In this document: positions 15,021-64,000 of the stretch, piece after piece | How positions within the stretch are numbered: position 1 is the first letter of the stretch | Layout of the letters: every line of letters begins with the position of its first letter | From: Opitutia bacterium | Lineage (GTDB): Bacteria; Verrucomicrobiota; Verrucomicrobiia; Opitutales; Opitutaceae | Assembly (NCBI GenBank): GCA_947474365.1 | Contig: CANJIU010000001.1 | Coordinates: forward strand, 1 to 64,000 | Length of the DNA: 64,000 nt | Reading direction: 5' to 3' | Notes under the pieces: generated by a model | The model's database searches: none | What the model was told of the DNA's origin: nothing | Seen by the model: only the letters and a program-made list of their open reading frames with translations | Made by a program: the position numbers and the translations under genes

Positions 15021-15064
15021 GAGATTTCGGCTATTTCTTGCGGTGACTGGATATCAAAGCTCCG

Positions 15065-16330: not shown

Positions 16331-16334
16331 CGTC

Positions 16335-16425: not shown

Positions 16426-16539
16426 CTTGGGGGGCAGGGGATCGTGGCAGTTTTTCGGTCCCGCTGCTTTAGCCGTGGCGCACTAAATTGTCGCCAATTT
16501 GGCCCAAAGCCGCCCGTGGGCGAGATTACGCCCCGGTCC

Positions 16540-17275: not shown

Positions 17276-17314
17276 AAGGGAGGAGCAGGTGGATTACGGG
17301 AGGTTGCGCGGATG

Positions 17315-18493: not shown

Positions 18494-18513
18494 GGGCTTT
18501 TCATGTAGGAGAA

Positions 18514-19521: not shown

Positions 19522-19868
19522 AGGTTGGGTCGAGGTTGGGTTTGGAGGAAGCCAGTTACTTCAGGCCGAAGTGGCGGTCGGCGAAATCAAGATAGCACTT
19601 CCAATCGAAAGGCGTGACGTCGTGGACGCCGCTGCGGATATGGTAGCTGATCGCTCCCATCTGCGGTTGATTGATGGGCGGCAGGTCTTTCACTCCCAGG
19701 CCCGCCGCGCCGAACAGGCGATACACCGGCTCTGCATGCAGCGCGGACAGAAACTCACCACGCGGGTCGGCCTGCTGGTCTCGCTCGGCGCTGGCCACGT
19801 AGACCGGACGTGGTGCCATCAGGGCTATCAGCATGTGCTGGTCAAACGGCAGATCGCTGACGCGCTCG
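19462..19868. repeat. Copy B of a junction duplication (partner 12505-12905)
   Basis: This is the intact-context copy: the 3' end of the full-length CE15-type esterase, the spacer, and the signal peptide of the oxidoreductase. Because both flanking genes are complete here, this copy is the more likely source. Boundaries are approximate, set where alignment to copy A breaks down. Confidence 0.8.
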
Positions 19869-22389: not shown

Positions 22390-22427
22390 GGTTGTTGGTT
22401 GCTTGAGGTGGAGGAGAAATCGGGTGG

Positions 22428-24155
22428 TCAGGGACTCGAGCTGGACGGGGACGGCCCGCCCAACGTGAGGACCCATTCGCCCTTGGATGGCGGAACGAGA
22501 CGATGCACGCCCGGCGTCTCGACGCTGCAACGCGCCGGCGCGTAGCGACCACGAACGGGATCAAACCAACGAACTGCGAGTGGAACTGAAAACGTCGACA
22601 CATCCACCTCGATGGCTTCGTTGTCCGGGAGGTAGGCGACCGCGCGGTCTCGCCCCGCGATCTTTGCCAAGACCGCGCGTCGCGCCCATGCCTCGGGCTG
22701 ATTGCGGATGAGTTCAGGCGCCGGCTCCAATCGCCACCACTCGAGGGCGGCCAGAAAGTCGTGCAAGTATTGCATCTGTGAGGCGCTCTCCCATTGGAGC
22801 GCCTTCTCCCAATAATCGTATTTCTCCGGGTCGGTGATCCACTTCCAGATTCCGCCATTGCCGAGCGTAACTTTGGGCGACACGTCGCCCGCACCGTAGG
22901 TGTAGCCTTTTGCACCCGACAGCCAGCTCAGCCACGCGTGCGACCGGGCGTCTACTGCCTGCCAAGCCTTCTCGCCCTGGCCGTCATACATCGCTTCGAG
23001 GTTGATCACGGGCTTGTGCGGCTCGTGGCGGTAGGCGTGCAGCATCCACTCGGATGCGTGATGCGCGCATCGTTCGCGGTTGCCTTGGTTGTGCCCGGAT
23101 TGAACGCCTGCGAAATCGAGATACGGCTGATCGTAATACTTCATCGTGTAGGTGGGAATCGGCTCCCGCGAAGGCGTGCCGGGATGCTGCGTGATCAGGT
23201 GGACGGTGGTGGCGTCCCGGGTGGCCCGGCCCACTTCATCGGCCAACGGCATGAAGTTGCTGTCGAAGCTCGGCGAGAAGATGACGAAGTTACCGAAGAG
23301 TCGCGCCACGATTTGCCTGGAGAAAAGGCACGCGGCGGCGGATTCCGGATACCTGTTCACCGGCTCCATCAGCCCGATGAGCATGACCACGAATCCGGCC
23401 TCGTTGGCCTGTTGAATCTTGCGCTCGAACGCCTGCCAGAAAGCGGGATTGCCCTGAAAACACGCCTCGTCGTGAAACGGCACCACGCCATCCCGGTTGG
23501 TCTCGCCGGCCCACTTGGGCGCCGGGGCCACCTGAATCAGGGGGAAGCGCTTCGCCCTGCGGTCGGCGAGGTAGCGGTTCCACTCGTCCTCGTTGGACCG
23601 CATCGGCGCCGCCCACGCCGTGTCACCCATCCAGAGAAACGGCGTGCCGTCACCAAAGGTTAGGTAACGGCGATCGTCGCTCACCTTCAGAAAGCCGCGG
23701 CGATAAAGCGTGTTTTCGCCACGATACGGAGTCACTTCGACGGTGCCACGCCTGCCGTGCAGGCCGGAGTTGCCGGCATCGGAGCACTCCGTCTCCCATC
23801 GCCACGTGCCTGCGATCGGAAATGCGCACCGGATGCGAAACACGTCGCCGCCGTCCCAGAAACCGTAGGTGGCGAGGACGCGGCCTTCCGGCCCGGAATA
23901 GCGGACTCGCAGGGTCACATCGGCGTAGGGATTGTCGTAGTTGCGCGTGCTCGTCAGCGTCTGCTCCCAGCGTTCCCACGCGTGCGGCCAGTGAGCCGCC
24001 GCGCCCTGCGACGACGCGACCACGGCGAAAAAAACCGCCGCACCAAGCGCCAGCGATGAAGGCCGGAGCGAAAGCGCAAGTGCATGTCCGAAAAATGCCC
24101 ACCGGCGCGAGGCGGCCTTCACGTGCTGCGCTGGAATCGAGATCGGGGTTTTCAT
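22428..24155 (-). CDS. DUF5060-DUF4038 glycosidase, GH140/apiosidase-like
   Basis: About 575 residues from the ATG at 24155. An in-frame ATG at 24179 would add 8 residues. A signal segment (about 30-53) precedes a DUF5060 beta-sandwich (WERWEQTLTSTRNYDNPY onward) and the DUF4038 barrel. The barrel is marked by LTFGDGTPFLWMGDTAWA, PVINLEAMYDG and the GAKGYTYGAGD loop, all characteristic of the GH140 family that contains the RG-II apiosidase. The C-terminal domain AYLPDNEAIEVDVS ... VRWFDP is collagen-binding-like. It would release apiose or a related branched sugar outside the cell. The substrate is an inference from the family and from the apiose genes at 58-64 kb. Confidence 0.85.
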   Translation of the reverse strand: MKTPISIPAQHVKAASRRWAFFGHALALSLRPSSLALGAAVFFAVVASSQGAAAHWPHAWERWEQTLTSTRNYDNPYADVTLRVRYSGPEGRVLATYGFWDGGDVFRIRCAFPIAGTWRWETECSDAGNSGLHGRRGTVEVTPYRGENTLYRRGFLKVSDDRRYLTFGDGTPFLWMGDTAWAAPMRSNEDEWNRYLADRRAKRFPLIQVAPAPKWAGETNRDGVVPFHDEACFQGNPAFWQAFERKIQQANEAGFVVMLIGLMEPVNRYPESAAACLFSRQIVARLFGNFVIFSPSFDSNFMPLADEVGRATRDATTVHLITQHPGTPSREPIPTYTMKYYDQPYLDFAGVQSGHNQGNRERCAHHASEWMLHAYRHEPHKPVINLEAMYDGQGEKAWQAVDARSHAWLSWLSGAKGYTYGAGDVSPKVTLGNGGIWKWITDPEKYDYWEKALQWESASQMQYLHDFLAALEWWRLEPAPELIRNQPEAWARRAVLAKIAGRDRAVAYLPDNEAIEVDVSTFSVPLAVRWFDPVRGRYAPARCSVETPGVHRLVPPSKGEWVLTLGGPSPSSSSP

Positions 24156-24197
24156 GGTGAACGACGGAGGGGAATTCATGGAGCTGAAATGATGAGC

Positions 24198-42758: not shown

Positions 42759-45401
42759 TTACCGCAGCTCGACCCGCCGGACTTCCACGGAGTCGATGAA
42801 GGCCTGGCGGTTGTCCGCGGGCATCACGAAATAGAGATTCGCCGAGGTGGACTCCGGCCCCGTGGTGAAGCCGATCGTGCGCGGCACGAACGTCGGCGAG
42901 TTGATGCTGATGTGGTCGGTGCGGGAGCCATAGCCACTCGCGCCAAAACGGAACCACGCTCCACGCAGCCACGCGGTCGCGGCATAGGTGGTGTTCGGCT
43001 CCAGGCCCTTGAGGCCCAGAGAAAAATACCCCTTCTTCGTCAGCCGCAGGCAGGGTCCTCCTCCCGGGCCGCCGTCCGGGATTATCACGGGCTCGGTGGT
43101 GCCGGGCTTCCAACGCTCGAGTTGTCGCTGGTCGAACTGCACGATGCCGAGCAAATCGGGTCCGACGAGTTCACCGCGCCGAATGTCGATGTCGTCCATC
43201 AGGGCCTCGCCTTTGTCGTCCTCGGTGTAGAGCGAGAATTTGACATCGACCTGGCCACGCGACGACGCCGGGTCGAGTTCCGGCCGGAACAGGAGCGTGG
43301 TGAGTTCGTATTTCCCGGTCACGGCCGGGACACCGGCAAAGACGTATTTGCCGTTCGTTTGTTTGTGCGTCTCCGCGTAGGTCATCTCCGCCCTGCCTTG
43401 CAGCGACTGCAGCCAGCCGCGCACCACGTAGAGCGCACCCGGCTCCAGCCCCCGGAGGGTCTGCGCCGCCCGAGTGCCCGGCACCAGATGCAACGCGCCG
43501 CGACCGGAGCGGGCTCCGTTCTCAGTCAAGCCGGCTCCGGTGCCGGTCAACTGCCACGGCTCTGGTTTGCCGAGTTCGAAGCCGAGATTGCCGGCGAGGT
43601 TGCGCACCGGCGGATTTTCCCGCGCTCGGGAGGGCGATTGCTCCTGCACTCCAACGGTGCGCGTGGTGCGAGCGACGGCGGCGGCAGGGATGGCTCGCGG
43701 TGCATCCACGCGCACCAATCGCGCGACGGCGTCGTGTCCGATCCAAGGAGCCGTCAACTCGATTCGCCGACCGCCCTCGACGGATGCTCCGCGGGCGCTC
43801 ACGCCGTCATGGGGCCGCAGCCACTCGACTTCAAACCGACCGCGCACTGCGCTCAAATCGAGCCAGAGCCGGGCGGCGCGTGTCGGGTCCGTCCGCGCGG
43901 CCCGGCCGGCGGAAGTGCTGTTGGGATGATAGGCGAGAAACTCGTCACTCCCGCGGCGCATGAGCTCCGGTGCGTCGGCGGCGACACGGCCATCGGCATC
44001 GCGCACCAGAGCGGGCGCCGGCACAAAATCCGAAAGCTCGATCGGGGGCGTAGAAAAATAGTCGCGAATCACCCGCACGGAATCGAGCCCCGTGAGCGCC
44101 TTGCTGAAGGTGACTTCCTTTCGCCGATAAAACGCGGACGCCTTGCCCGCGGTCTCGCTGTAAGGATGAACGACCCACCAGCGGCCGCCGTAGTTGGCGG
44201 AGCCTCCGGAAAGCAACCACGACCAGAACAAGCGCCGTTGCCAGTAGCGCATGTCCAGTGGGTCACGCTCGGTGTGATCCTGTTCGTAGCGGTCTTCGCC
44301 CAGGAACACGGGCTTCGCGAGCGCCTCGTATTGCGCGTATTGCTCCGCGCCGAGATCGTGCGCGTGCTCGATATGGATGTAGGTGGCCCAGTCCTCGGCC
44401 CCGAAGACAAACGGCAGCCGCCGCGCGTGGCCGGTGGAGCGTGGGTGCTGCCAGGGATCATCTTGCTGCAGATAGGCCCCGACTTCGCGGACCATCGCGT
44501 TGTTGTTCGGGAATTTCTCCCCGTAGTGGGCGTCGTTGACCAGCAGCCAGAACAGCTGCGGATAGGCGGCGAACCGGGCGACGAGGTTGCGCAGCAGGCG
44601 TTCGCGCTGCACCGGCTGCAGCGCGGCCCAGAAGGGATCATCACGGGCGTAGCCCGCTTGGGGAAACAGGATAAGCTGCAGGGCAATTTCAGGATGCGTT
44701 TCGAGCAGCATCCTCAGGCGACGGTCCGCGACTTGGAGATTCTCCAGACGGAAACGGTCCAGGGTCGCATCGGCAAAAAACCAGGTCCTCCACTGCTCCT
44801 GTGACTCGCCGAAACCGGCGCTGCCGCTCGCGAGATAACAGCGCACCGAGTTGATGCCGCGCGCGACATCGTCGACGACGTAGCGTCGCGCATCGTCGTC
44901 GGAGACCGCGTTGCCGTTGCCATCATAAGCGCAGAGCAGGAAGTAGGCGGTGTCGCTGAGATTGAGAAACCACCGCCCGTTCTCCGTCATCCAATGCCGG
45001 GAGTTTTTCGGGTGCGGCAGCAGCCGCCCGGGCAGGGACGATCCCGTGGCCGTGAACGCCCCGCGCCGGCTCGCCAAGGCACGATCGGTCGCGCACTGCG
45101 ATGACCATTTCCACTCTCCCGGCTCGCTCACATACACGCGCGCCCGCCAGGTGTTGTCGCCGTCGAAAAACGCCGAGACGTTCCTCGCGTTTCCAGCGCC
45201 GGAGGGTGGCGTGAAGGTCACGCGCGCAACGGTGTCGAACGGATTCTCTACGTTACCATCTCCTTTGAGAATGATTTCGTGGACGCCGAACTTCGCCGCT
45301 GCGTCGCTGCCGCCGGTGAAATTCGCCGCGGCGGCTGCTGCGACCAGCGGCCAACCCAAGCAAAGAACAACAACACGACGAACGGATTTCATGGCGATCA
45401 T
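42759..45401 (-). CDS. Multidomain DUF5060/DUF4038-like glycosidase with C-terminal binding modules
   Basis: 880 residues from the ATG at 45401, whose ATGA overlaps the upstream stop. An in-frame ATG at 45392 is an alternative. DUF5060 sandwich at about 30-110 (WRARVYVSEPGEWKWSSQC), catalytic barrel with GRWFLNLSDTAYFLL, INSVRCYLASG, FWLLVNDAHYGEKFPNN and PVFLGEDRYEQD (candidate catalytic Glu). Then come a beta domain (RPHDGVSARGASVEGG) and two CenC-type carbohydrate-binding-like segments (NLGFELGKPEPWQL and LKGLEPNTTYAATAWL). This is a large exported enzyme for a complex plant polysaccharide. Substrate unknown. Confidence 0.78.
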   Translation of the reverse strand: MIAMKSVRRVVVLCLGWPLVAAAAAANFTGGSDAAAKFGVHEIILKGDGNVENPFDTVARVTFTPPSGAGNARNVSAFFDGDNTWRARVYVSEPGEWKWSSQCATDRALASRRGAFTATGSSLPGRLLPHPKNSRHWMTENGRWFLNLSDTAYFLLCAYDGNGNAVSDDDARRYVVDDVARGINSVRCYLASGSAGFGESQEQWRTWFFADATLDRFRLENLQVADRRLRMLLETHPEIALQLILFPQAGYARDDPFWAALQPVQRERLLRNLVARFAAYPQLFWLLVNDAHYGEKFPNNNAMVREVGAYLQQDDPWQHPRSTGHARRLPFVFGAEDWATYIHIEHAHDLGAEQYAQYEALAKPVFLGEDRYEQDHTERDPLDMRYWQRRLFWSWLLSGGSANYGGRWWVVHPYSETAGKASAFYRRKEVTFSKALTGLDSVRVIRDYFSTPPIELSDFVPAPALVRDADGRVAADAPELMRRGSDEFLAYHPNSTSAGRAARTDPTRAARLWLDLSAVRGRFEVEWLRPHDGVSARGASVEGGRRIELTAPWIGHDAVARLVRVDAPRAIPAAAVARTTRTVGVQEQSPSRARENPPVRNLAGNLGFELGKPEPWQLTGTGAGLTENGARSGRGALHLVPGTRAAQTLRGLEPGALYVVRGWLQSLQGRAEMTYAETHKQTNGKYVFAGVPAVTGKYELTTLLFRPELDPASSRGQVDVKFSLYTEDDKGEALMDDIDIRRGELVGPDLLGIVQFDQRQLERWKPGTTEPVIIPDGGPGGGPCLRLTKKGYFSLGLKGLEPNTTYAATAWLRGAWFRFGASGYGSRTDHISINSPTFVPRTIGFTTGPESTSANLYFVMPADNRQAFIDSVEVRRVELR

Positions 45402-46420
45402 AACAGCACCCTTTCGAGAAACGCGTAGGCGCGCTCGCGCACTTCCTTGGGGAAATCGTGCGGGCAGTCGGGATGCTCGACCGCGATCGCGCTCGGCGTG
45501 CCCAGCAGCGCATGCGCCTCGCGCGCGGTCGCAATCAAACGGTCGACGCTTTTCCATTGGAAATTCGCATCCTTCAGCGGCGCGTTAACGAAAATCGGGC
45601 GAGGCGACAGCGCGGCGAGCAGATCGTCGAAATCAAACGGGATCTCGTCGAGTCGTCCCCGATACTTCGCCAGGCGCGGCATGTAGCGATCATGGCACCA
45701 GCCCTTGCCGTGCTCCCAGTTCTTCGGATCGCCGTTGTAGTAGTCGCGAAACGAATCAAACCCGCAGCTTGTGACGATCGCCTTGATCCGCGGGTCGAAC
45801 AGCGCGGTGAAAATCGAATTGTGCCCGCCTAGCGAATGCCCGATGGCACCAAAGGCGCCGGGCCTGACCTCGCGCATTGAGTCGAGCAGATCGAGTGCGC
45901 GCAGGTTGTCCCAGATCGCCTTCATCGTCCCGCTCGCGTAGCCGAGCTTGAAGACGTCCGGCTGATACTTTGCCAGCAACGGATAGTTCGGCGCAATGGT
46001 CACGAAGCCGCGCTCCGCCAGCTCGCTCGCGTATTGCCGGTTCGGCGTCTGGTTCCCGAGGCCCTCGATCACCACGGCGTGTCCGATCGTGTTGTTTGTC
46101 CCGTGCAGGCACAGCGCGGCCGGTGCGGGCTTCCCGGCAAGCGCGGATTTCGGGATCAGCAGATATGCGGGTGTGCGCGAGCCCGGCTCGCTTGCATATG
46201 TGATGAGCCGCCGCACATGACTGCCGCAGTCCACTTCCTCGCTCACCTGCACATCGAGGGCGCAACGTTTCTCCGCGCCGGGCAGCGGCCCCATCACGTC
46301 TTGCACCGCAGCGAGAATCTGCGCGCGTCGCTTTGGCCCGTCGGCGGGCTGCCTCAGCGTCTGCGCTTGGGCGGCGACAGCGGTGGCGGCGATGAGTTGC
46401 AGGAAGGCGCGGCGTTTCAT
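45398..46420 (-). CDS. Tat-like exported alpha/beta hydrolase
   Basis: 340 residues with KRRAFLQLIAATAVAAQAQ at the N-terminus. ALCLHGTNNTIGH starts the core, the nucleophile is Ser in AIGHSLGGHNS and the His is in CPHDFPKEVRERAYAFLER. It is closely related to the C-terminal half of the ceramidase fusion at 40131-42677 (HGTN, EVDCGS, GHSLGG), so the fusion probably arose from a copy of this gene. It overlaps the next start by 4 bases. Likely an acetyl-esterase-type deacylase. Confidence 0.83.
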   Translation of the reverse strand: MKRRAFLQLIAATAVAAQAQTLRQPADGPKRRAQILAAVQDVMGPLPGAEKRCALDVQVSEEVDCGSHVRRLITYASEPGSRTPAYLLIPKSALAGKPAPAALCLHGTNNTIGHAVVIEGLGNQTPNRQYASELAERGFVTIAPNYPLLAKYQPDVFKLGYASGTMKAIWDNLRALDLLDSMREVRPGAFGAIGHSLGGHNSIFTALFDPRIKAIVTSCGFDSFRDYYNGDPKNWEHGKGWCHDRYMPRLAKYRGRLDEIPFDFDDLLAALSPRPIFVNAPLKDANFQWKSVDRLIATAREAHALLGTPSAIAVEHPDCPHDFPKEVRERAYAFLERVLL

Positions 46421-53745: not shown

Positions 53746-56700
53746 TCAAAACGAGAGACGGGTTGAAAGCGTCCACACGCGCGGGTCGCGCACGGCGATC
53801 CGCCTGATCTGGTTGGTATCGCCCGTGTTGGCGTAGCGGATTATCCTCGGATCCGTTTCGTCGAAAAGATTCGAGATGTTTAATTGCACATTGAGCCGCA
53901 CCCGGTCTTTCAAGCGTCGTTCATAGCCGAGAAGCAAGGAGGCCTGGCCAACCGGCGGGGCGAATTGCAGCCGTTTGGGGGCAGCAAGGGTCTGCCCTAC
54001 CAGCGTCTTGCCAGTATACGTGTAGCCCCCGCCGGCAAATGCGCCCCTCAGGAAACCCTGCTTGAAGGAATAGCGCGCAAAGAAGTTGGCCTTGTATTTG
54101 GCGTTGCCGACGAGCCCGATTCCCTCGCCGGAAAGGGTTTCAGCCAGAAAGTCATCCTCCGTCGCAATTTCGTCAGCAATCGTATTGGCGCCGACGCCGG
54201 TCTGGATGTTTTGTGGGAATCGCGAGTAAAACGCCTTTTGCCCTGCCCACCACTCGACGACTTCGGGAATGATCTTAGAATACGTCCCGTCGGTGTAAGA
54301 GCCGTTGACACTCAGCCGCCAGTTGCCGGGATTGGCGGTCAACGAAAGTTCGTAACCCTCCGAACTTTTGTCCCGGGATGTGGCGTTGGCGTTCGACGCA
54401 CGGTCGTCCGCCTCGGCAACCGTGATTCGGCCGGCGCTTAACAGCGCGGCGCGAATACGTTCATTCTGCGTATTATGAGTGCCGGCGCCACTGAAGAGTT
54501 CTCCGACGGACTCCGTGGTGTAGCGCACCAAGCTGGCATAAATCTTCCCGTTCAACAAAGTGAACGTCACCCCGTAATCTTTTCCGACGCCTGTTGACGC
54601 TGGACCGGAGAAGACGGGACCGGAGGGTTTCGAGGGAAAAACTCTCACCGATGAATTAACCGCGCTGCTGTTGGTAGCTTGGTTGTATTTGAACGAGACG
54701 TTCTTCAGCGCATGCCATACGACGCTAAACGTGCGGGTCTGGGGCTCTGAAACCGGGCGCGTGGGGGCGTTATCCCGGATAAAGTCACCAGTCACCGGGT
54801 CTCGCACTTGGCCATAATCGTCGACGGCAAGGCGGTCCATTCGGTAGCCGGCGCCGGCGATGAGCCGCCCGTTAAACCAATGGCCTTGTAGCGACGCGGT
54901 GCCACTCGCGGCTTCGGATGTGTCGTTGGATGAGGCATTATAAACAACCCACTTGGTGCTAAAACTCCGACCCGATACGGGATCCCTTACGTTGTTGAGC
55001 AGGCCGCTCTCCGAGGGGCCGCTGACATAATAGCTCCCCCAGGCGCCTTCGGTTACATAGGTGCGACGATACGCGAGGTTTTGGTCAGCAGCAGCGTTAA
55101 ACGGATTCCCGTCGAACACCTCGAATTTCGGGTGAGACTGTCCGTCCTCTTTTTCTATTTCTCCGAAAACCCCGCCGCGATACCGGCCCCACTTTCCGGC
55201 ATCGACCTCGTGTGAAAACGAGAGTCGAGCGGTGTCGGTTTTTAGCCCGGCATCCCACTTTCGCCAATAGGTCTCCATATACAGTTTACCCGCATAGGGG
55301 TTGACGCCCAAAGTTCCCGGCAGATTTGTGTTAGGGTCAGCATAGAGTATGTGCGAAACCACCGGATCCAGGCTGTCAAAGTGCCGGCTCTGACGATTGA
55401 CCCCCAACTCGACGAATGTCTTCCTACCCAGCTGGGCAGTGGCGATGGCGGAGAGGGAGTTGTAGGGGTTGGTGCGGACCTGTCCGGGACCACCGCTGTT
55501 GATCGTAAACGAGATGATCGACGGGTCCATGATCGGATAGCCGCCTGTGCCCGCGCCGCGAGAGCCGAGGGTGGCGATCTGTCCTCCCATGTGGATCAGT
55601 TGGTTCGAATTGGAAATAAAGCGCAGCGTCGACAGGCTGGTTGAGACGCGAGAGCCCAGTCCCGCAAAGGTGCTATTGGGGGCGGTTGCGGTGAAAAGCG
55701 GCCTTCCTGCATTTAGCCAGGGAACGACGCTGTCGAAGACGCCGGTCAAACGGCCCGAATTGGCCTCCACTTCGCCCTTCTCGTATTCGACCCGGGCCGT
55801 CAACCACGGCGTGATCTCGTATTTGGCCGCCAGATGCGCCCGGCGGCTTTCGGAATACCGATACGGCTCGAGGTAGCGGGTGCGATTGGCCACGGCATTG
55901 AACCGCACGGCGACCCTGTCCCCAAGCGGCTGGTTGACGTCGAGCGTCGCGCGCCACGAGCTGAAGCTGCCGCCGGACAGCGAAATCTCCCGCATCGGAC
56001 GCTTCAACACCGCCTGCTTCGTGGCGACGTTGATGATGCCGCCCGCGTTGCCGATGCCGAAGAGGACGGAATTCGGGCCACGGGCGTCCTCGACGCGTCC
56101 AATATTATAAGTGTCGGTCGAGTTTTGCCACTTGAAGTAGTTGCGGGCGATATCCACCGGGAGACCTCGCACCCGACTACTTCCGAGGGCCGAACCCATG
56201 ACGCTATTGCCCGACGAGTTGTCACCAAAACTACCGGCGTCGTCCAGATCGGGCTGAAAGTTGTTCGCGTAGGCCATCACTTCCTTCAGGTCGGTGGCGT
56301 TGATGTCCTTTATGAATTCCTCGGTGAACACCGATATCGATGCCGCGATGTCTTTCAACGGGGTGTTCATGCGACTGCCGGACAGAGTGTCAGTGGCTTG
56401 ATAGCCGACATCGGAGTTACTGGTGACTTCAAACGGACTGAGCTGCACGACGGATTCACCTTTGCTGGAAGACGAAGCGGCGCCGGTGGCGGGTGGGTTT
56501 GCAGTCTGGGCGAACGTGGAGGTGACCACGGCGAACGCTGCGGATAGCGTGGCGAGGAGTTTGTTTGTTTTCATCGGCTCTTGGTTGGGGGGAGACGGGG
56601 TTTCTGTTTTTTGCAGTGCGTTGTCGCCGGTCGCTGGCGGCGGAAGTTGATCGGATGGAGGCTTAACGACGCGATGGACGACAAAGGCTCGGCTTCTCTC

Positions 56701-57015
56701 GTCCGGGGTAGCCATCAGGCCCGTGCCGAGGAGCAGGTATTGCAGCGCCTCCAGCGGCGTGAAGGTTCCGGCCAGCCGGTTCGTGCGGGCGCCGTCGACC
56801 GTGTTGGCGTCCATGATCACGCCGTAGCCGGACTGCTCGGAAAACACCATCAACGCAGACTCCGCACGTTGCGCAGGAATATTGAAAGAGCGTCTCAAAC
56901 CGGTCTGTTGAGCGACCGCAGGCAGGCAAAGCAGCGCGGCGATTGCGCACAGAACTATCTGCTGGCAGGACCGGCGCCGCTCGCGCGGCAGTCCGAGGCT
57001 GGGGTGGGGTTGCAC
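53746..57015 (-). CDS. TonB-dependent receptor with N-terminal STN domain
   Basis: 1089 residues. Signal peptide (about 18-36), then an STN domain (41-115, RRSFNIPAQRAESALMVFSE to FVVHRV), a Pro-rich linker, and a plug (about 190-330) with VVQLSPFEVTSNSDVGYQA, DIAASISVFTEEFI and GPNSVLFGIGNAGGI. The barrel runs to the C-terminal Phe (WTLSTRLSF). An in-frame Met at residue 148 (base 56574) begins a second complete signal peptide, MKTNKLLATLSAAFAVVTST. It is a fusion or a gene with two usable starts. The receptor would import an oligosaccharide or sugar across the outer membrane, probably paired with the ABC importer downstream in the pathway. Confidence 0.92.
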   Translation of the reverse strand: MQPHPSLGLPRERRRSCQQIVLCAIAALLCLPAVAQQTGLRRSFNIPAQRAESALMVFSEQSGYGVIMDANTVDGARTNRLAGTFTPLEALQYLLLGTGLMATPDERSRAFVVHRVVKPPSDQLPPPATGDNALQKTETPSPPNQEPMKTNKLLATLSAAFAVVTSTFAQTANPPATGAASSSSKGESVVQLSPFEVTSNSDVGYQATDTLSGSRMNTPLKDIAASISVFTEEFIKDINATDLKEVMAYANNFQPDLDDAGSFGDNSSGNSVMGSALGSSRVRGLPVDIARNYFKWQNSTDTYNIGRVEDARGPNSVLFGIGNAGGIINVATKQAVLKRPMREISLSGGSFSSWRATLDVNQPLGDRVAVRFNAVANRTRYLEPYRYSESRRAHLAAKYEITPWLTARVEYEKGEVEANSGRLTGVFDSVVPWLNAGRPLFTATAPNSTFAGLGSRVSTSLSTLRFISNSNQLIHMGGQIATLGSRGAGTGGYPIMDPSIISFTINSGGPGQVRTNPYNSLSAIATAQLGRKTFVELGVNRQSRHFDSLDPVVSHILYADPNTNLPGTLGVNPYAGKLYMETYWRKWDAGLKTDTARLSFSHEVDAGKWGRYRGGVFGEIEKEDGQSHPKFEVFDGNPFNAAADQNLAYRRTYVTEGAWGSYYVSGPSESGLLNNVRDPVSGRSFSTKWVVYNASSNDTSEAASGTASLQGHWFNGRLIAGAGYRMDRLAVDDYGQVRDPVTGDFIRDNAPTRPVSEPQTRTFSVVWHALKNVSFKYNQATNSSAVNSSVRVFPSKPSGPVFSGPASTGVGKDYGVTFTLLNGKIYASLVRYTTESVGELFSGAGTHNTQNERIRAALLSAGRITVAEADDRASNANATSRDKSSEGYELSLTANPGNWRLSVNGSYTDGTYSKIIPEVVEWWAGQKAFYSRFPQNIQTGVGANTIADEIATEDDFLAETLSGEGIGLVGNAKYKANFFARYSFKQGFLRGAFAGGGYTYTGKTLVGQTLAAPKRLQFAPPVGQASLLLGYERRLKDRVRLNVQLNISNLFDETDPRIIRYANTGDTNQIRRIAVRDPRVWTLSTRLSF

Positions 57016-57065
57016 GTGGGTGGGGTCGCACTCTTCAACTCAAACTACCGGGTCAGGCGGAATCC

Positions 57066-57995
57066 CTAAACGGATCCGTCGATTCCCGGATGTTCGCGCC
57101 AGTCCGTGGGCGATCGCCCGGTTACGCGGTGAAACATCCGGGAGAATTCATGCTGACGGACATATCCGAGTTCGTCGGCAATCTGCTTTATGCTGAGCGG
57201 TGTCTCGATCAGGAGGCTTTTCGCGGTCTGCATGCGGGTGCGAAGCGCCATCTGGCCCGGAGACACGCCGAACACCGCCGTAAACTCGCCTCGCAGCGAG
57301 TTGTAGTTCGGCATCTCCTTTATCCGCCTCGTAAACTCCGCGGGCCGGCCGGCTGTTTCCTGAATCATCTGCCAGAGCCGCAATATCTCGGGACGCCCTG
57401 TCGCTGGCGCGATCGACGTGGCGAACTCCCGCTGGGCCCACCGATGCACGTTTACGAGCAGCAAGTGCAGCCACGCGGCCTCCGCCAGGGCACAACTCGG
57501 AGCGCGTTGCGAATGCTCCACCGACAGACGCATGAACAACCACTTGAAGGTTTCCACTTGCGGGACGGTGAGCTGGCAGGGGCGCAACATGGAATCGGCC
57601 CGGCCGAAGGCGGGCAGTCCCGCCAGCAGCTTCGGATCCAGCGTGAAGTGAACGACCCAGATGCGGGGCTGCTGGCGATTATCGTTCCAAAAGCCATGCT
57701 CCTCGCCCGGGCGGTAATGGAACAACGTGTTCGCCGAAATGGGCAGCAACTGCCCAGCAAAACCATTTAGCGTTGTGCCCTCCGTGGTCAGGGCGATCTC
57801 GTGAAAGGGATGAGAGTGCCACTGACAGTAGTTCTGAGGCGCGGTGTGAACGCAACGCAGCGAGATTGCCCGCAACCTCGACCAATCGTCCGTGAACTCG
57901 GGCGCGACCAGCGGGCCGGGTGGGCTCTCCACCCCGGCTTTTGCCCGGGGCAACTTCGGATGAGGGGGTTTCGACACTTGAAGATCAGTTGCCAA
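57066..57995 (-). CDS. AraC-family transcriptional regulator
   Basis: 309 residues. A cupin-like sensor half contains HSHPFHEIALTTEG and FHYRPGEEHGF, the classic arabinose-type arm. The C-terminal DNA-binding domain has LRGEFTAVFGVSPGQMALRT and IKQIADELGYVRQHEFSRMF, then HRVTGRSPTDWRE. It lies between the receptor gene and the sugar-binding protein gene, so it most likely controls the uptake and catabolic genes around it in response to the imported sugar. Confidence 0.88.
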   Translation of the reverse strand: MATDLQVSKPPHPKLPRAKAGVESPPGPLVAPEFTDDWSRLRAISLRCVHTAPQNYCQWHSHPFHEIALTTEGTTLNGFAGQLLPISANTLFHYRPGEEHGFWNDNRQQPRIWVVHFTLDPKLLAGLPAFGRADSMLRPCQLTVPQVETFKWLFMRLSVEHSQRAPSCALAEAAWLHLLLVNVHRWAQREFATSIAPATGRPEILRLWQMIQETAGRPAEFTRRIKEMPNYNSLRGEFTAVFGVSPGQMALRTRMQTAKSLLIETPLSIKQIADELGYVRQHEFSRMFHRVTGRSPTDWREHPGIDGSV

Positions 57996-58079
57996 TCCGT
58001 GCTTGGCTTGCGAGCGGGAAGGCGGTCTCGCGGCGTTTCGGCGAAATGATCCTGCGCTGCGGCGAAAGAGGTGGACCCG

Positions 58080-59117
58080 TTAGCCGCCCAAGAAGAGATC
58101 CACCGTCTCGCGCGTGACCGTGTAGGTGCCGGTGTTGTAGTTCGATCCGATGGGGAGAATCCCGGCCGCCTTGTCGTTTTTTGTGAACTTGATCGGCGAG
58201 TGGTTCAGGTCGAAGAGCGCCTTCACGCCGAGGTAGGTGAAGAGTTCACGCTTCTGCCCCACGCAGGCCGTGAGCACGCCCTCCTTGAGGAACCGCAGGT
58301 GGGCTTCCTCCGCGTCGACACAGGTGGCGAGGATTTTTCCCGCCTTGCCGGCTTCCTTGATTGCCTGGGCGATCCCCGGTCCGCTCTCGCTGTCAAAGCC
58401 GGCCATGCCCGCGAGATCGGGCGTGCCTTGAATGAGACCGGCAGCCACGCGGGTGGCTTCAGCCGTGTTGCCCTTGTCCTGTTGCGGCTCCATGCAGGAC
58501 AGGCCGTGCTTTTCGGCGACGCCGCGAAACCCGGCGAAGGCCTTTTGAGACGTTTCCTGCTCGATGAGACCGAGCAGCGCTACGCGGCCCTTGCGGCCGG
58601 CGAGAGCCTTGACCATCGCCTCGGCCTGGCGGACGCCGATCTCGAACCAATCGGTGCCGATGAACGAGAGACGCCGGCTGGCGGGCACATCGCTATCCAC
58701 ACACACCACGGGAATACCGGCGGCGATCGCGGCATCGATGGGAGGGACGAGCGCGCTCGGATCCCACCCCACCACCATCATGCCAGCCGGCTTGCTGGCG
58801 GTGGTCTGTTCGATGGCGGCGACGAGGCCCGGAATGTCCACGGAACTCGGGCCGGCGATGCTGACTGTGACCCCGAGTTCCTGTCCGGCGAGCCGGAGCG
58901 CCGGGTGATCGTGCTGGGTGAAGAGCGGCAGGTTGGCGTTGGCCGAGAGCCACACGTATACTTCATTGGGATGCGCGCCGCGGGTGCGGCCGGCGGACGG
59001 TGCGACGGTTTCGCGCTTTTCGCAGCCGCCGAGGCCGGCCACAGCGGCCGCGCCGGCACCAAGGGAAGCGACTTTTAGCAGATGACGACGAGTGAGGACG
59101 GGGTTGGTGGAGTGCAT
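58080..59117 (-). CDS. Tat lipoprotein, ribose-type sugar-binding protein of ABC importer
   Basis: 345 residues. The N-terminus combines a Tat motif (LTRRHLLKVAS, RR at 10-11) with a lipobox ending at Cys32 (AGLGGC). The mature domain is a type I periplasmic-binding fold (VWLSANANLPLFTQHDHPAL, VVCVDSDVPAS, AGFDSESGPGI). It starts 22 bases after the permease stop. With the permease and ATPase it forms an RbsABC-type importer. Candidate ligand is D-apiose or apionate, because an apionate lactonase gene follows directly upstream in the operon. Confidence 0.87.
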   Translation of the reverse strand: MHSTNPVLTRRHLLKVASLGAGAAAVAGLGGCEKRETVAPSAGRTRGAHPNEVYVWLSANANLPLFTQHDHPALRLAGQELGVTVSIAGPSSVDIPGLVAAIEQTTASKPAGMMVVGWDPSALVPPIDAAIAAGIPVVCVDSDVPASRRLSFIGTDWFEIGVRQAEAMVKALAGRKGRVALLGLIEQETSQKAFAGFRGVAEKHGLSCMEPQQDKGNTAEATRVAAGLIQGTPDLAGMAGFDSESGPGIAQAIKEAGKAGKILATCVDAEEAHLRFLKEGVLTACVGQKRELFTYLGVKALFDLNHSPIKFTKNDKAAGILPIGSNYNTGTYTVTRETVDLFLGG

Positions 59118-59139
59118 GGGGAATAAAATGGGCGCAATT

Positions 59140-60111
59140 TCAACGCTGTTGCTTCCGGTTCAGCACCGAATCGATGGCGACGGCGAAGACGAGGACCAGC
59201 CCGAGAATGATGCCCTGCCACTCCGGACGCACTTGTTTGATGAGAAGCATGTTTTGAATCACGGCCACGAAGAGCACGCCGAGCAGCGCGCCCCAGGCCG
59301 TGCCACGGCCGCCTTGCAGGCTGGCGCCACCGAGAATGCAAGCGGTGATCGCGCCCAGTTCCTTGCCCATTCCCACCGTGCTGCTCGCGGTTGCGACGCG
59401 CGAGGCGTAGACGATGCCAGCCAGACCGGCGAAGAGTCCGACCAACGTGAACGCAATAATCTGCAGGCGTTCGACGTTGATGCCGCTGAGGTGCGCCGCC
59501 TTCGCATTCGAACCGATGTAGTAGAATTGCCGAAAGAAGCGCGTATGGTCGAAGCCATAATGCCCCACCGCGCCGAGAAAGATGACCAGCCAGACCGGAG
59601 CTTGGAGGCCGAGGAACTGCGTCTGGCCGAGCTGGGTGAACGAGGGCGGCAGAAAGGTGATGCCAGGGCCGCCGACGAGGAGCGCGATGCCGGAGAATAT
59701 TCCCATCGTGCCCAAGGTCGTGATCAGGGCGTTCACACGCACCTTGGCGACGACGACTCCGTTGGCGAATCCACTGAGGGCGGCGAGCGCGAGACCGCCG
59801 GCAATTGCGGCCGGCACGGGCCAGCCCGCGTGTTTCATGAGCCAGCCCGTGACGACCCCGACCATCGAGGCGGTCGCGCCCACGCTCAGGTCGAAGGTGC
59901 CACCGATCAACATCAGCATCATGCCAAGCGCGAGGATGCACTCGAAAGCCATGTTGCGAACGACCGACGCAAAATTATCGAAGGTGGCGAAGCGCTCCCA
60001 GGAGACGGGAAACAACACCCGAAACACGACGAGGATGAGAACCAGCAACAGGAAGACGCCGATTTCACGGGTCGGCACGAAGCGGCGGCGGAGTTGGGGT
60101 TCCATGGGCAT
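59140..60111 (-). CDS. Ribose-type ABC transporter permease
   Basis: 323 residues, with about eight to ten hydrophobic helices. The characteristic central segment LALGMMLMLIGGTFDLSVGA and the EAA-like region IGSNAKAAHLSGINVERLQI identify the RbsC/MglC family. The starting Met follows the ATPase stop by only 3 bases. It would form the homodimeric membrane channel of the importer. Confidence 0.92.
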   Translation of the reverse strand: MPMEPQLRRRFVPTREIGVFLLLVLILVVFRVLFPVSWERFATFDNFASVVRNMAFECILALGMMLMLIGGTFDLSVGATASMVGVVTGWLMKHAGWPVPAAIAGGLALAALSGFANGVVVAKVRVNALITTLGTMGIFSGIALLVGGPGITFLPPSFTQLGQTQFLGLQAPVWLVIFLGAVGHYGFDHTRFFRQFYYIGSNAKAAHLSGINVERLQIIAFTLVGLFAGLAGIVYASRVATASSTVGMGKELGAITACILGGASLQGGRGTAWGALLGVLFVAVIQNMLLIKQVRPEWQGIILGLVLVFAVAIDSVLNRKQQR

Positions 60112-60114
60112 GGG

Positions 60115-61662
60115 TCAATTCTTTCCGTCCCGAGCGGCGAGCCGCATCACCGTCTCCTCGTTCGCTCCGTCGCCGCTCACTTCGCCGGCGATGCGACCGG
60201 CGCGCATGACATAAATGCGGTCGCTGATGCGGAGCACCTCGGGGAGGTCGCTGGAAATCACCACGACGGCGTGCCCCTGTCGCGCATAGGCGCGCAGGAG
60301 CTGATGCACTTCGGCCTTGGCGCCGACATCCACCCCGCGCGTCGGCTCGTCCACGATCAGGACGCGCGGGTTGGCGAGGAGCCAGCGCGCCAGCAGCACT
60401 TTTTGCTGGTTGCCGCCGCTGAGATGCGCCGTGTCTTGCTCGACCCCGCGGCACGCGATCCGGAGCTTGGCCACAAAATCGCGCGCCGCGCCCGACTCTT
60501 CGGTGTCGCGAAAAAACCAGCCGCCGAATTTCGCGAGCCGCGCGGCGCTGATGTTGCGCCGCACGCTCATGTCGAGAAAAAGCCCGGACTCCTTGCGATC
60601 CTCGCTCACATAGCCGAGCCCGGCGTCGATCGCGTCCGCCGGTGAACGGATCGATACGCGGTTTCCGCCGAGCCGAATCTCCCCGGCCCCCTGCGGCCTC
60701 GCACCGAAGAGCGTGAGCGCCGTTTCCGTGCGCCCGGCGCCGGCCAGCCCGGCGAGACCCACGATTTCGCCCGCTCGCGCGTGAAACGAAATGTCCTGCA
60801 GCATGGGTTTTCCACCTCCAGTGTCCGTCGGGTCGCTCAAGCCGCGGACGTCGAGCAGCACCGGTTGGACGGCCTCGCTGGCGCCGTAGTGGAATTTTTC
60901 GACGTCACGGCCCACCATCAAGCGGATCAAATCGTCGGCGGTGGTTTCCGCGACGGGCATGGTGCCCTGCCATGCGCCGTCTTTCAGGACGGTGACGCGG
61001 TCGGCGATGCCGAAAACCTCCTCCAGTCGATGAGAGATATAAACGACGCCGGTGCCCTGACTCTGCAACTGGCGGATAACCGCGAAGAGTCTGCGGGTCT
61101 CGGCGTCGGTTAGCGCTGCCGTGGGCTCGTCGAAGATCATCACCTTTGCGTCGAGCGACAACGCCTTGGCAATCTCCACCATTTGCTGCTGTGCCGGCGA
61201 GAGGTCAGCCACCGTCGCCTCGGTGGAGATATCGGGTGCGACGCGGGCCAGCACGGCGGCCGCAGAGGCATGCAGCTGGCGACGGACGACCATGCCCCAG
61301 CGCGTGACCGGTTGTCTTCCGGCGAAAATATTCTCCGCGACAGTCAGCGGCCCAAACAAGCTGCGTTCCTGAAACACGATGCCCACCCCCGCGTGCTGGG
61401 CCGCGTGCGCGCTAGCGAACCCCGCATGCGTCCGGCCGCCCAGAACGATTTCGCCGGCATCCGGCCGATGCACGCCGGCCAGGATATTCATGAGCGTGCT
61501 CTTGCCCGCGCCATTTTCGCCGCACAGCGCATGCACTTCGCCTGCGCGAACCGTGAAGTCCACGCCCTTCAACACCTCGATCCCGGCAAACGTCTTCCGG
61601 ATCTCGCGCATGGCGAGAAGCGGATCGGGTTCCGCTCGTTGAGTTGTTGGTCCGACCGTCAT
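60115..61662 (-). CDS. Ribose-type ABC transporter ATPase with two nucleotide-binding domains
   Basis: 515 residues with duplicated ABC domains. First Walker A GENGAGKST at 48-56, signature region LSPAQQQMVEIAKAL and Walker B MIFDEPTAAL. The second has GLAGAGRTE in place of Walker A and signature LSGGNQQKVLLARWLL, the usual degenerate arrangement in RbsA/MglA. It ends 3 bases before the permease start and overlaps the lactonase gene stop by 4 bases. Confidence 0.94.
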   Translation of the reverse strand: MTVGPTTQRAEPDPLLAMREIRKTFAGIEVLKGVDFTVRAGEVHALCGENGAGKSTLMNILAGVHRPDAGEIVLGGRTHAGFASAHAAQHAGVGIVFQERSLFGPLTVAENIFAGRQPVTRWGMVVRRQLHASAAAVLARVAPDISTEATVADLSPAQQQMVEIAKALSLDAKVMIFDEPTAALTDAETRRLFAVIRQLQSQGTGVVYISHRLEEVFGIADRVTVLKDGAWQGTMPVAETTADDLIRLMVGRDVEKFHYGASEAVQPVLLDVRGLSDPTDTGGGKPMLQDISFHARAGEIVGLAGLAGAGRTETALTLFGARPQGAGEIRLGGNRVSIRSPADAIDAGLGYVSEDRKESGLFLDMSVRRNISAARLAKFGGWFFRDTEESGAARDFVAKLRIACRGVEQDTAHLSGGNQQKVLLARWLLANPRVLIVDEPTRGVDVGAKAEVHQLLRAYARQGHAVVVISSDLPEVLRISDRIYVMRAGRIAGEVSGDGANEETVMRLAARDGKN

Positions 61663-63605
61663 GGCTGCAACTCCAGCCGCACGAGACCAAAGGGGGCCAG
61701 CTCGATCGGTATCTCGTGCTCTGCGGCAGGGACGAGTTCGCAGCCTATGCTGCGCAGGAACGAATCGGGCTCAAACTGCCACCGGCTTCCCGGCGAGAAA
61801 TCGAGATCGAGTCGATGAGTAACCCGGGTGAAGCCCGCCACGACGGCAGATTGGCGGATCGCGGTCAGGTTCGCGAGCCACAGGCAAGTGGAGTCGGCGT
61901 TGGCCAGCGCGATCGCCTCGACGCGAAGCGAGTCGGTGGAATGAGTGAGTAGGACCTCGCTGCCCGCGAACGCACCGAGCGCGCCGAGCGCATAAAACAC
62001 AGGAAACATCTGGCCGGGCAGCGACGGGAATCGGCTCGGCAATGGAGAACCGGACTCGCGTTCCATGACGCCCCGCCAGCCCGTCGTTTCAAAGAACGTC
62101 ACGCTCGCGGCGCCTTGCTCCGCGAGATGTTTGATCATCGCCAGCGTCCAAGCCGCCAGAAACGGCGACAACTGACGCGAATCCACCGGCGGCGGCAGTT
62201 CACCGGGTGCCGGAGGTTTTTCACTGGCGGTCGCGACGGGATTAAGGCGCGGCTTGAGTGTCACCGGCGACACCACGAGCGGTTTGTTCGGGAAAAATTC
62301 TCGTGCGCTTTCGAGCTGAGCTGCGACGGCGGCGGGCGTTTCAGCGATCGAAGCCAGGTCGAACGCATGCACCTGCGGGTTCATCGACCAATGCACAAAG
62401 TCGGCTTGTTCGTGCGGCGGCCTGAACTGGTTGAGCTGGTAGAAATCCGCATCGGTGCCGGCGCCGATGGGCACGCCGAGCGGTGTCAGCCGCGGGCGCG
62501 CGAGGGCGAGGCTGGCGGCCGAGGCGGTTTTTTCCCCGGTGCGAAACAACAGGACGCGAACGACGGCGGCGGACCTCGCCCGGAGTTGGCGAACGAGTTC
62601 GTCGAGTTCCCGCTCTCCGCCCTGCGCGGGCAGATGCACCGCGAGTTCGAGCGGGATGCGAAGCTGCGCCGACTGATGCTGCGACAGCGTCAACCTCTCC
62701 AACCAGTCCGACTGACCAAGCCGAACCTCGGCGCGAAGGTGGGCGAGCCGCAGTGTGCCCACCCGCGCCGCCTCCCGGGCCGTGAGCGGCTGTCCGTGCG
62801 AGGCGCTGCCGATACCGATCGCCGGGAGCGGCCGGCGAACGCTCGTCAGAGCAATGCGGAGTGGCGGCCGAACTTCGGCGGCGATGGCGGGAAGCGGCCG
62901 GCGGGCATTGAGCTTCAGGAGAATCTCCTGGCGGATGCGCGTGAGCGCCGGCACCTCGACCGGATAAGGGAGATGCAGCGGCGTGCAAAACGTCTTGAAG
63001 CTCGCGTCGATCCAGTTGCGCTGGTCCTCCATCTCGAACCGCTCGCCGGTGAAATGCAGCTCTGCCCACATGCCCGGGGTGACCTCATGGGCAAGCGCCG
63101 CCAAGTCGTGGATGCCCGGAACCGGTTGCGCGGCCTCGACCAGCCGGGGAAACATCACCTCGGCCCGCGGGCCGGCGCCCCGCTCGGCGAGGCAGCGCCT
63201 CCCGGCGCAATCGGCTGGATGCAGCACGCAGAAACCTATGCGATTGCGCAGAAAGGTCGTTCGCGCTTCTCCGTCGAATGTGAAGCGGATGGTCCCGTTG
63301 GCCTGGCCAGTGATCTCCGCCCGCCAGACGAAATGAATCTCGTCGCGCCGGTGCGTGCTCGCATAGGTCAGGCGAAAGCTGTCCGGTCCGGCATTCATCC
63401 GAAGATCCGAAATCTCTGCGGGCACGGTGCCCCAGTTCCGGTCGCGCACGGCGGCGTAGATGCGGCGGATGATTTCGTGCTCACCGAGCTTGATATAGCG
63501 CAGGTCGCCGTCTGCGAAGATCATCGTGAGAGGGCCGGCGCGCAGCGAAACGTGATCGGCAGGCGCAGACGTTGCGGCGGGCGAATGCGCCAGGGACTCA
63601 CTCAT
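61659..63605 (-). CDS. apnL: D-apionate lactonase
   Basis: 648 residues from the ATG at 63605, which overlaps the upstream gene's stop by 8 bases. The N-terminus LRAGPLTMIFADGDLRYIKL then GEHEIIRRIYAAVRDRNWGT, and NRIGFCVLHPADCAGRRCL, match the family of D-apionate lactonases as I remember it. A central barrel-like region (GVPIGAGTDADFYQLNQFRP and TTGWRGVMERESG) and a C-terminal beta domain follow. ApnL opens D-apionolactone to D-apionate in the bacterial apiose pathway. The identification is by memory of family sequences and context, not by a search. Confidence 0.78.
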   Translation of the reverse strand: MSESLAHSPAATSAPADHVSLRAGPLTMIFADGDLRYIKLGEHEIIRRIYAAVRDRNWGTVPAEISDLRMNAGPDSFRLTYASTHRRDEIHFVWRAEITGQANGTIRFTFDGEARTTFLRNRIGFCVLHPADCAGRRCLAERGAGPRAEVMFPRLVEAAQPVPGIHDLAALAHEVTPGMWAELHFTGERFEMEDQRNWIDASFKTFCTPLHLPYPVEVPALTRIRQEILLKLNARRPLPAIAAEVRPPLRIALTSVRRPLPAIGIGSASHGQPLTAREAARVGTLRLAHLRAEVRLGQSDWLERLTLSQHQSAQLRIPLELAVHLPAQGGERELDELVRQLRARSAAVVRVLLFRTGEKTASAASLALARPRLTPLGVPIGAGTDADFYQLNQFRPPHEQADFVHWSMNPQVHAFDLASIAETPAAVAAQLESAREFFPNKPLVVSPVTLKPRLNPVATASEKPPAPGELPPPVDSRQLSPFLAAWTLAMIKHLAEQGAASVTFFETTGWRGVMERESGSPLPSRFPSLPGQMFPVFYALGALGAFAGSEVLLTHSTDSLRVEAIALANADSTCLWLANLTAIRQSAVVAGFTRVTHRLDLDFSPGSRWQFEPDSFLRSIGCELVPAAEHEIPIELAPFGLVRLELQP

Positions 63606-64000
63606 GGCTGAAGTGGACGACGACATTGCGCGAAGCCGAGTCATAGGCGCCAAAGACGAGCTGCAACGTTTTGAGGTTGTCCACTCCCGTGGTTTCGGCG
63701 GCAACTTCGCCGCGCAGCGCGGCGAGCAGGTTCGCGTGGCAGGGCACGATGCTCGCGTGAGCGATATCGTAGGCCGGATCGGCCCACGCATAACGCATCG
63801 GCGGGTGCCGGGTGATTTGCGTGCCGCGCGCGGTGGTGACTCGGAGGCGATAGGCGGACCCCAGCTCGATCGAGCCGAGCGGGCCTTCGATGAAGGCGAG
63901 CGTTTCCGGGAAGCACTCGCGCTCAAGCGGCGTCTTCGCGAAGGCCATTTCGATCACGACGCTAGTCCGCGCTGCTCCCATCGTGAGCATGACCGTCGCC
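63598..64000 (-). CDS. C-terminal part of a Gfo/Idh/MocA dehydrogenase, probable D-apiose dehydrogenase, 5' end outside window
   Basis: The visible about 133 residues run to the stop at 63598. IEMAFAKTPLERECFPETLA, IEGPLGSIEL and TTGVDNLKTLQLVFGAYDSA are the C-terminal beta-sheet and last helix of a cytoplasmic Gfo/Idh/MocA oxidoreductase. No Tat signal can be judged. In known apiose loci the dehydrogenase that makes apionolactone (ApsD) belongs to this family and sits beside the lactonase gene. That position is the main reason for the proposed role. The gene continues to the right of the window. Confidence 0.72.
   Translation of the reverse strand, partial: ATVMLTMGAARTSVVIEMAFAKTPLERECFPETLAFIEGPLGSIELGSAYRLRVTTARGTQITRHPPMRYAWADPAYDIAHASIVPCHANLLAALRGEVAAETTGVDNLKTLQLVFGAYDSASRNVVVHFSHE

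Follow-up and report, generated by a model that had tools for sequence, protein, structure and literature searches.

The window analyzed here is the whole 64,000-nucleotide stretch formed by bases 1 to 64000 of a 186-kb contig (CANJIU010000001.1) from an Opitutia bacterium genome (10.3 Mb; 97.6% complete, 7.4% contamination), and the element under study is a run of 15 consecutive minus-strand genes (contig positions 53746 to 73486) whose right part extends past the window end. Inside the window, the run comprises a TonB-dependent receptor (53746 to 57015; PF07715 plug, 39.6 bits), an AraC-type regulator with an AraC-like ligand-binding domain (57066 to 57995; PF12833, 66.5 bits; PF02311, 34.8 bits), a sugar-binding protein (SBP; 58080 to 59117; PF13407, 152.5 bits), a single RbsC/AraH-type permease (59140 to 60111; PF02653, 129.8 bits), an RbsA-type sugar ABC ATPase (60115 to 61662; NCBIfam RbsA, 523.9 bits, under the cut-off of 745), an ApnL-like D-apionate lactonase of 648 aa (61659 to 63605; NF049900, 283.4 bits, cut-off 750) and, at 63598 to 64000, the C-terminal part of GfoB, an ApsD-like Gfo/Idh/MocA paralogue (contig 63598 to 64635; PF01408, 70.7 bits). 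Further along the contig follow a ketopantoate-reductase-like enzyme (KPR; 64643 to 65575), a DUF1537 kinase (65572 to 67044), a fusion of phosphotriesterase-family (PTE) and VOC/glyoxalase domains in one frame (67052 to 68518), an FAH hydrolase (68578 to 69513), an O-methyltransferase (69553 to 70566), the ApsD-like Gfo/Idh/MocA dehydrogenase GfoA (70563 to 71588), a Zn-alcohol dehydrogenase (Zn-ADH; 71689 to 72699) and an MBL hydrolase (72716 to 73486), all on the minus strand.

Apiose is a branched plant sugar, and the run probably serves the uptake and catabolism of D-apiose, or of a very close branched sugar, by a pathway whose lower half is non-homologous to the ApnO, OiaK and OiaX enzymes of the known oxidative route. 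It would be a variant of that route, its lower half shared by members of three phyla; we infer its substrate and all of its lower chemistry from sequence comparison.

Gaps between the 15 genes range from −8 to 100 bp, and we infer a single transcript, with more same-strand genes flanking the run on both sides. As described in the initial annotation, the lactonase, dehydrogenase and importer genes are co-oriented and overlapping, the lactonase gene sharing 4 bp with RbsA and 8 bp with GfoB. Pattern scans were given no weight: sigma-70 promoter-like sites numbered 0 where 1.5 were expected, the 12 sites resembling terminators equalled the expectation of 12.0, and DNA repeats at the locus were short and chance-like only. 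Among 273 genomes of the order, the PTE-VOC fusion was full length in its own genome only, with separate PTE or VOC matches in seven others. The same annotation had tentatively placed the DNA in a PVC bacterium, and an identical lactonase (100%) was indeed found in a public metagenome-assembled genome, Verrucomicrobia bacterium NC_groundwater_1845.

Lactonase, dehydrogenases and importer

The lactonase appeared in the list of open reading frames as a 755-aa TTG frame; the ATG at 63605 gives the 648-aa protein, which begins just ahead of the conserved part. ApnL (NF049900) was its sole NCBIfam match (E up to 0.001), so the earlier comparison with ApnL stands as to family, with a score below the equivalog cut-off. 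That cut-off excluded seven of the eight lactonases scored, the window's included: only the protein from Shinella passed (813 bits), followed by relatives at loci L084 (615), L154 (478), L018 (334), L009 (325), L006 (323) and L065 (254). Three of these loci (L006, L009 and L018) hold ApnO, OiaX and OiaK together, and their lactonase (323 to 334 bits), OiaX (518 to 527 bits) and OiaK (466 to 521 bits) each match their own model best, yet all lie below cut-off. Because lactonases encoded beside ApnO, OiaK and OiaX score no more than this, a sub-threshold score is no argument against apiose.

A scan of GTDB genomes yielded at least 577 relatives of the lactonase, of which the best 80 were taken; one (L004) was the window itself, leaving 79 homologue loci. 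Counts over these loci therefore describe the best 80 of one scan, with genomes picked after the fact and many short flanks. ApnO homologues lay in the fetched flank at 20 of the 79, and OiaX and OiaK at 13 each. In a tree of 83 rows built by a quick method, the window lactonase was sister to those of L005 and L023 (57% identity; SH-aLRT 100), whose loci encode, on the other strand from the lactonase, an ApnO homologue (45 to 46%), a relative of GfoA (58%) and an Rbs importer; the fetched flanks of this pair contained neither OiaX nor OiaK. Lactonases of this kind are infrequent, occurring in 5 of 273 genomes of the order (its own included) and in 6 of 387 genomes of a phylum sample (its own and a repeat of G236 included).

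Residues were compared in an alignment of 89 rows including the window (at least two rows repeat one genome), to which three proteins from rhizobial plasmids were added. In it, R54, E191, E193, D194, Q195, R196, N197, W198, H413, D416, D475 and R477 were identical between the window and all three rhizobial proteins, among them the Shinella ApnL that passes the cut-off, and both kinds of lactonase keep R54, E191, E193 to W198 (Q195 in 88 of 89 rows), H413, D475 and R477. An AlphaFold2 model of the lactonase (66 rows, pLDDT 92.5) predicted resemblance to TIM-barrel glycosidases: a GH97 enzyme ranked first by E-value (TM 0.31), followed by GH30 and GH51, with TMt reaching 0.66 for a portion of the protein and TMq of at most 0.43, a resemblance compatible with a lactonase as well as with a glycosidase. 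No solved structure resembled the lactonase by sequence below E 0.6.

Both Gfo/Idh/MocA dehydrogenases fell inside the ApsD clade, at 41% (GfoA) and 39% (GfoB) identity to Shinella ApsD and 57% to each other. GfoA clustered with the dehydrogenase of L005 and L023 (support 93/77, branch not starred) and GfoB stood next to them (86/86), in a tree with some very long branches. The reference was Shinella plasmid CP132317, on which ApnL (813 bits) and the RuBisCO-like OiaX (786 bits) pass their cut-offs and the kinase is best matched by OiaK (438 of 700 bits); its ApsD and ApnO labels are presumptive, assigned by us from operon position and the known pathway. Orthology of the SBP to those of canonical apiose operons was rejected: it scored 29 bits to the Shinella SBP and had no relative at E 1e-5 among the open reading frames of the other ApnL loci L005 to L086. 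With ApnL as the sole NCBIfam match, a sister pair encoded in a cluster with ApnO, and both dehydrogenases in the ApsD clade, the upper half of the run likely converts D-apiose, or a close relative, to the aldonate, D-apionate. Of the release, import and oxidation of apiose outlined in the initial annotation, uptake and oxidation are thus supported; release rests with the glycosidase genes considered below.

Search for the canonical lower pathway

Carter et al. (2018) reportedly described an oxidative D-apiose pathway that proceeds through ApsD, ApnL, ApnO, OiaK and OiaX. The same five enzymes are named in a further source (PMC11747546). ApnO-type genes had been anticipated beyond position 64000; the region holds other genes, and the candidate of an ApnO just past the window end was rejected. 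Neither the Shinella ApnO nor the ApnO of L006 found a match anywhere in the genome. As controls, of 10 genomes with ApnL loci the Shinella query matched 6 strongly and a seventh marginally (G606; E 7e-4), and the L006 query matched strongly in 4 of 11, all four belonging to the order or family of the window (one, G031, has the L009 locus). OiaX likewise had no match in the genome with a query that finds homologues of 44 to 51% identity at 13 of the 79 loci. The best score on the OiaK model was 20.6 bits (cut-off 700), against 438 for Shinella and 466 to 521 for L006, L009 and L018; identity of the run's DUF1537 kinase with OiaK, on which model it scores about 20 bits, was accordingly rejected. 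Within the same family, G236 combines ApnL, a GfoA relative, ApnO and an Rbs importer, and in G589 ApnO lies about 13 kb from ApnL on the same contig.

Recurrence of the replacement module

One counterpart lies on plasmid NZ_CP045498 of Mesorhizobium sp. INR15, where a single same-strand run holds homologues of the present KPR (50% identity), RbsA (50%), RbsC (43%), SBP (40%), MBL hydrolase (64%), Zn-ADH (54%) and FAH hydrolase (43%), together with an ApsD-like dehydrogenase (45% to Shinella ApsD, 40% to GfoA). Its ApnL, a hypothetical protein in the gene-by-gene annotation of the deposited record, is a 630-aa frame scoring 478 bits, nearer the Shinella kind (37%) than the window's (30%). The locus further carries a divergent DUF1537 kinase, which scores 509 bits on the 3-oxo-tetronate kinase model (cut-off 350), and two pieces of a class II aldolase. 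The INR15 operon differs from the window's in these respects, and no PTE, O-methyltransferase or second Gfo match was found in the 28 kb read. No ApnO was found in the same 28 kb of plasmid, the search not including the INR15 chromosome. A second INR15 plasmid (NZ_CP045500; L155) carries the KPR-importer-MBL-ADH-FAH-Gfo run again, here in part disrupted, and includes the same ApnL entry annotated as hypothetical.

In genomes of the class Thermoleophilia (the class of G604), a lactonase match was found in 7 of 299, and the loci of five genomes were fetched. Three of them (L137, L138 and L140) encode ApnL, an SDR, KPR, MBL and FAH in a row (to the present run, KPR 41 to 44%, MBL 45 to 46%, FAH 45 to 46%), with no Rbs importer match at the locus; two of the three add a DUF1537 kinase and an F_bP-type class II aldolase, and L140 a VOC gene. 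KPR was not seen at L136, L139 and L141, the last being the second lactonase locus of G604. Across the 79 homologue loci (the best of at least 577), KPR occurred only at L065, which belongs to G604. No ApnO was found in the four KPR-module genomes searched (G000, G604, G796 and G828).

The run looks like a local-type dehydrogenase and lactonase to which an importer, KPR and MBL hydrolase have been added, the closest relatives found for these three being alphaproteobacterial. Its Zn-ADH (56% identical to those of L008 and L027) and its FAH hydrolase (46% identical to that of L137) are both about as near to other phyla.

Two further gene groups were also observed. L008 (8892 to 17182), from an Abditibacteriaceae metagenome-assembled genome with no ApnO match, holds a GfoA homologue (62%), ApnL, an SDR, a GHMP kinase and a cyclase recognized by eye, the Zn-ADH mentioned above, and a long protein whose L137 relative matches 2-hydroxyacid dehydrogenases. 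Contig C36 of the window's own genome (L118, 4445 to 10968) and contig C64 of G236 (L142, 7774 to 12504) carry an isocitrate/isopropylmalate-type dehydrogenase, a cyclase-like gene, an ApsD-like Gfo (35%), a VOC gene and a DUF1537 kinase, with no ApnL in the stretch; the L118 cluster includes an MFS gene.

Proposed chemistry

The TonB receptor and the Rbs-type ABC importer would bring the sugar in, the ApsD-like dehydrogenase would make the aldonolactone, and the ApnL-like lactonase would open it to D-apionate. From there, the KPR-like enzyme, probably NAD dependent, may oxidize C2 of D-apionate, and the Zn-ADH may oxidize a hydroxymethyl group to give a 2,4-dioxo acid of the kind on which FAH hydrolases act. 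The FAH enzyme could then cut the branch carbon from this acid (as formate, or as CO2 if further oxidized) to leave 2-oxo-tetronate, which the VOC domain may isomerize to 3-oxo-tetronate for phosphorylation by the DUF1537 kinase and cleavage to triose phosphate. A 2-oxo-tetronate product agrees with the presence of a 3-oxo-tetronate kinase and a class II aldolase in INR15. In a simpler alternative, 3-oxo-isoapionate would be kept as an intermediate, with KPR replacing ApnO and FAH acting as a decarboxylase. Neither scheme offers a firm role for the MBL hydrolase, the PTE domain, GfoB or the O-methyltransferase.

D-Apionate and D-pantoate are both 2R-hydroxy acids in which the hydroxyl stands beside a fully substituted carbon bearing CH2OH, and this shared pattern makes the KPR fold a natural fit for C2 oxidation of D-apionate. 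All five module KPRs keep K176, E256, N98, N180 and S244 of Escherichia coli PanE, and in all five (E. coli numbering) R31 is replaced by D, N184 by L and N194 by A, S or I. We take K176 and E256 to be catalytic, R31 to contact the NADPH phosphate and N184 and N194 to line the substrate pocket. In light of structural work on such enzymes, the aspartate at position 31 suggests NAD rather than NADP as cofactor and hence the oxidative direction.

For the FAH hydrolase, the best NCBIfam match was 2,4-didehydro-3-deoxy-L-rhamnonate hydrolase (165 bits, cut-off 500) and the best PDB match 8sky (179 bits), probably Bacillus subtilis YisK. Decarboxylation by relatives of this enzyme in vivo is disputed: for FAHD enzymes, one report treats oxaloacetate decarboxylation as minor next to tautomerization (PMC10825186), and another argues that decarboxylation is central (PMC12176266). 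Given these conflicting accounts, the FAH step is the weakest of the scheme and counts against it.

In its boldest form, the proposal would be an undescribed apiose pathway across Verrucomicrobiota, Actinomycetota and Pseudomonadota, in which C2 oxidation by KPR, the ADH step and debranching by FAH lead to a C4 acid that reaches triose phosphate via 3-oxo-tetronate phosphate, without RuBisCO-like protein or oxidoisomerase; in the window organism, this lower half would be grafted onto a local-type lactonase and dehydrogenase. We regard this full version as speculative and rather unlikely as it stands. No account of a KPR-FAH apiose variant was found in the open-access literature searched, a search outside which Carter et al. 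(2018) fell.

Counterevidence and alternative explanations

Several observations weigh against assigning the run to apiose or against the lower half proposed for it. The lactonase fails the ApnL equivalog cut-off and its family departs from rhizobial ApnL at the three positions given below, and the genome, at 97.6% completeness, makes the absence of ApnO and OiaX strong, not absolute. Five further ApnL genomes (G607, G761, G048, G605 and G606) have neither a strong ApnO match nor the module at the locus, so loss of ApnO is by itself no pointer to the KPR module, and in the ApnO-positive genomes the search for KPR covered the ApnL loci. The parts of the module also vary among its bearers: the Thermoleophilia-class loci have an SDR in place of the ApsD-type Gfo/Idh/MocA dehydrogenase, the run's DUF1537 kinase is 34 to 35% identical to theirs and has no match to the INR15 kinase at E 1e-3, and the window run contains no class II aldolase. 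Its extra genes (O-methyltransferase, PTE domain, MBL and second Gfo) are poorly placed by the scheme.

The likeliest of the alternatives, in itself unlikely, is that the run degrades some other sugar, such as a further branched sugar or a furanose, with the ApnL-like enzyme opening the corresponding lactone and the residue differences reflecting substrate. Each of R291, E422 and E506 is conserved in 88 of the 89 rows that make up the family of the window lactonase. Of the three rhizobial proteins, all have replacements at R291 and E506 and two at E422, and the pair of rhizobial ApnL encoded alongside ApnO has all three residues replaced. The Thermoleophilia-class loci without ApsD and the dissimilarity of the window SBP from those of other ApnL loci point the same way. 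However, the same lactonase family adjoins ApnO, OiaX and OiaK, INR15 couples the module to ApsD and to an ApnL nearer to Shinella than to the window, and E191, E193 to W198, H413, D475 and R477 are common to both kinds of lactonase.

A composite operon is less probable still. Here apiose would be oxidized only to apionate (or feed another route), and KPR, FAH, MBL, PTE-VOC, the kinase and the O-methyltransferase would serve an aromatic aglycone, tetronate or, for KPR, pantothenate. Consistent with the last role, KPR scores 255.5 bits on TIGR00745, the general model of the PanE subfamily (cut-off 141.35), and is the only clear KPR of its genome (PF02558, 147 bits; two others, at 33 and 25 bits, barely exceed the cut-off of 22.2), so it could also serve pantothenate synthesis, a point that weighs against the main reading as well. 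A composite would also accord with the Gfo-VOC-DUF1537 sets without ApnL on contig C36 and in G236, and with a cluster upstream of the sugar operon at contig positions of about 82 to 89 kb (80000 plus locus 2408 to 9298; minus strand), whose FAD_binding_3, Amidohydro_2, RraA-like, PrpF, OxRdtase_C Gfo and LigB genes look like a putative protocatechuate/gallate 4,5-cleavage set. Against it, three genomes from a different phylum have KPR, MBL and FAH straight after ApnL and SDR, and in Mesorhizobium these genes share a run with the importer, ApsD and ApnL.

An ordinary canonical operon (ApsD-ApnL-ApnO-OiaK-OiaX) seen only in part in the window is highly improbable and largely refuted, for all that the run includes an Rbs importer along with ApsD-like and ApnL-like genes and that G236 unites ApnL, a GfoA relative, ApnO and such an importer, as other genes lie past 64000, ApnO and OiaX were found nowhere in the genome and the kinase reaches about 20 bits on the OiaK model.

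Apiosidase-domain proteins and the neighboring glycan region

The initial annotation had also placed DUF4038/GH140-type enzymes between 20.9 and 45.4 kb. Two proteins there do carry an Apiosidase domain, one at 22428 to 24179 (minus strand; PF13204, 187.1 bits, cut-off 26.5), which matches PDB 8t9w ("Apiosidase", 72.6 bits) and 3kzs/5msy (69.1 bits), and a second, weaker one at 42759 to 45557 (minus strand; 43.3 bits); the protein at 20923 to 22530 had DUF6298 and collagen-binding-like matches only. The two lie 30 and 8 kb from the TonB end of the run, and the roughly 8 kb separating the TonB gene from the nearer protein are occupied by unrelated PALP, HEAT/cytochrome c, DegT and DMFA2_C families. 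Genome-wide, seven matches to the Apiosidase domain were found, six above cut-off, with the strongest protein on another contig. The occurrence of two of these six in 0.6% of the genome, the share taken up by the window, is suggestive; the link to the operon is one of proximity and is weak, and the proposed release of apiose by these enzymes is to be read accordingly. Elsewhere in the window (12939 to 20908 and 25582 to 46420), several AXE1-like and glucuronoyl-esterase-like proteins, a GH123-like, a heparinase II/III-like and an SMP-30-type protein are encoded on the same strand and read as a larger plant-polymer or glycan region.

Implications and comparison with known pathways

If the proposed pathway is correct, a second oxidative route exists in three phyla, and apiose degraders are missed by genome searches for ApnO or RuBisCO-like proteins. 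The pathway would also be a clear case of modular pathway swapping, with the same upper half and a non-homologous lower half, and it offers testable functions for enzymes now automatically annotated after other pathways, among them a subgroup of KPRs, an MBL hydrolase and an FAH hydrolase. Independently of this, the present ApnL cut-off leaves out seven of the eight lactonase relatives scored here.

The run resembles the canonical oxidative pathway in its ApsD-like dehydrogenase adjoining an ApnL-like lactonase and in its Rbs-type importer. It differs in having KPR, FAH, MBL, Zn-ADH, PTE-VOC and another DUF1537 kinase, with ApnO, OiaK and OiaX not found. Four-carbon acid-sugar pathways employ a dehydrogenase, an isomerase, a DUF1537 kinase and a class II aldolase, and the proposed lower half would follow the same logic of oxidation, isomerization, phosphorylation and cleavage, the INR15 kinase passing the 3-oxo-tetronate kinase cut-off. 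In contrast to those pathways, the entry compound here would be a branched C5 acid, and the dehydrogenase belongs to the ketopantoate reductase family.

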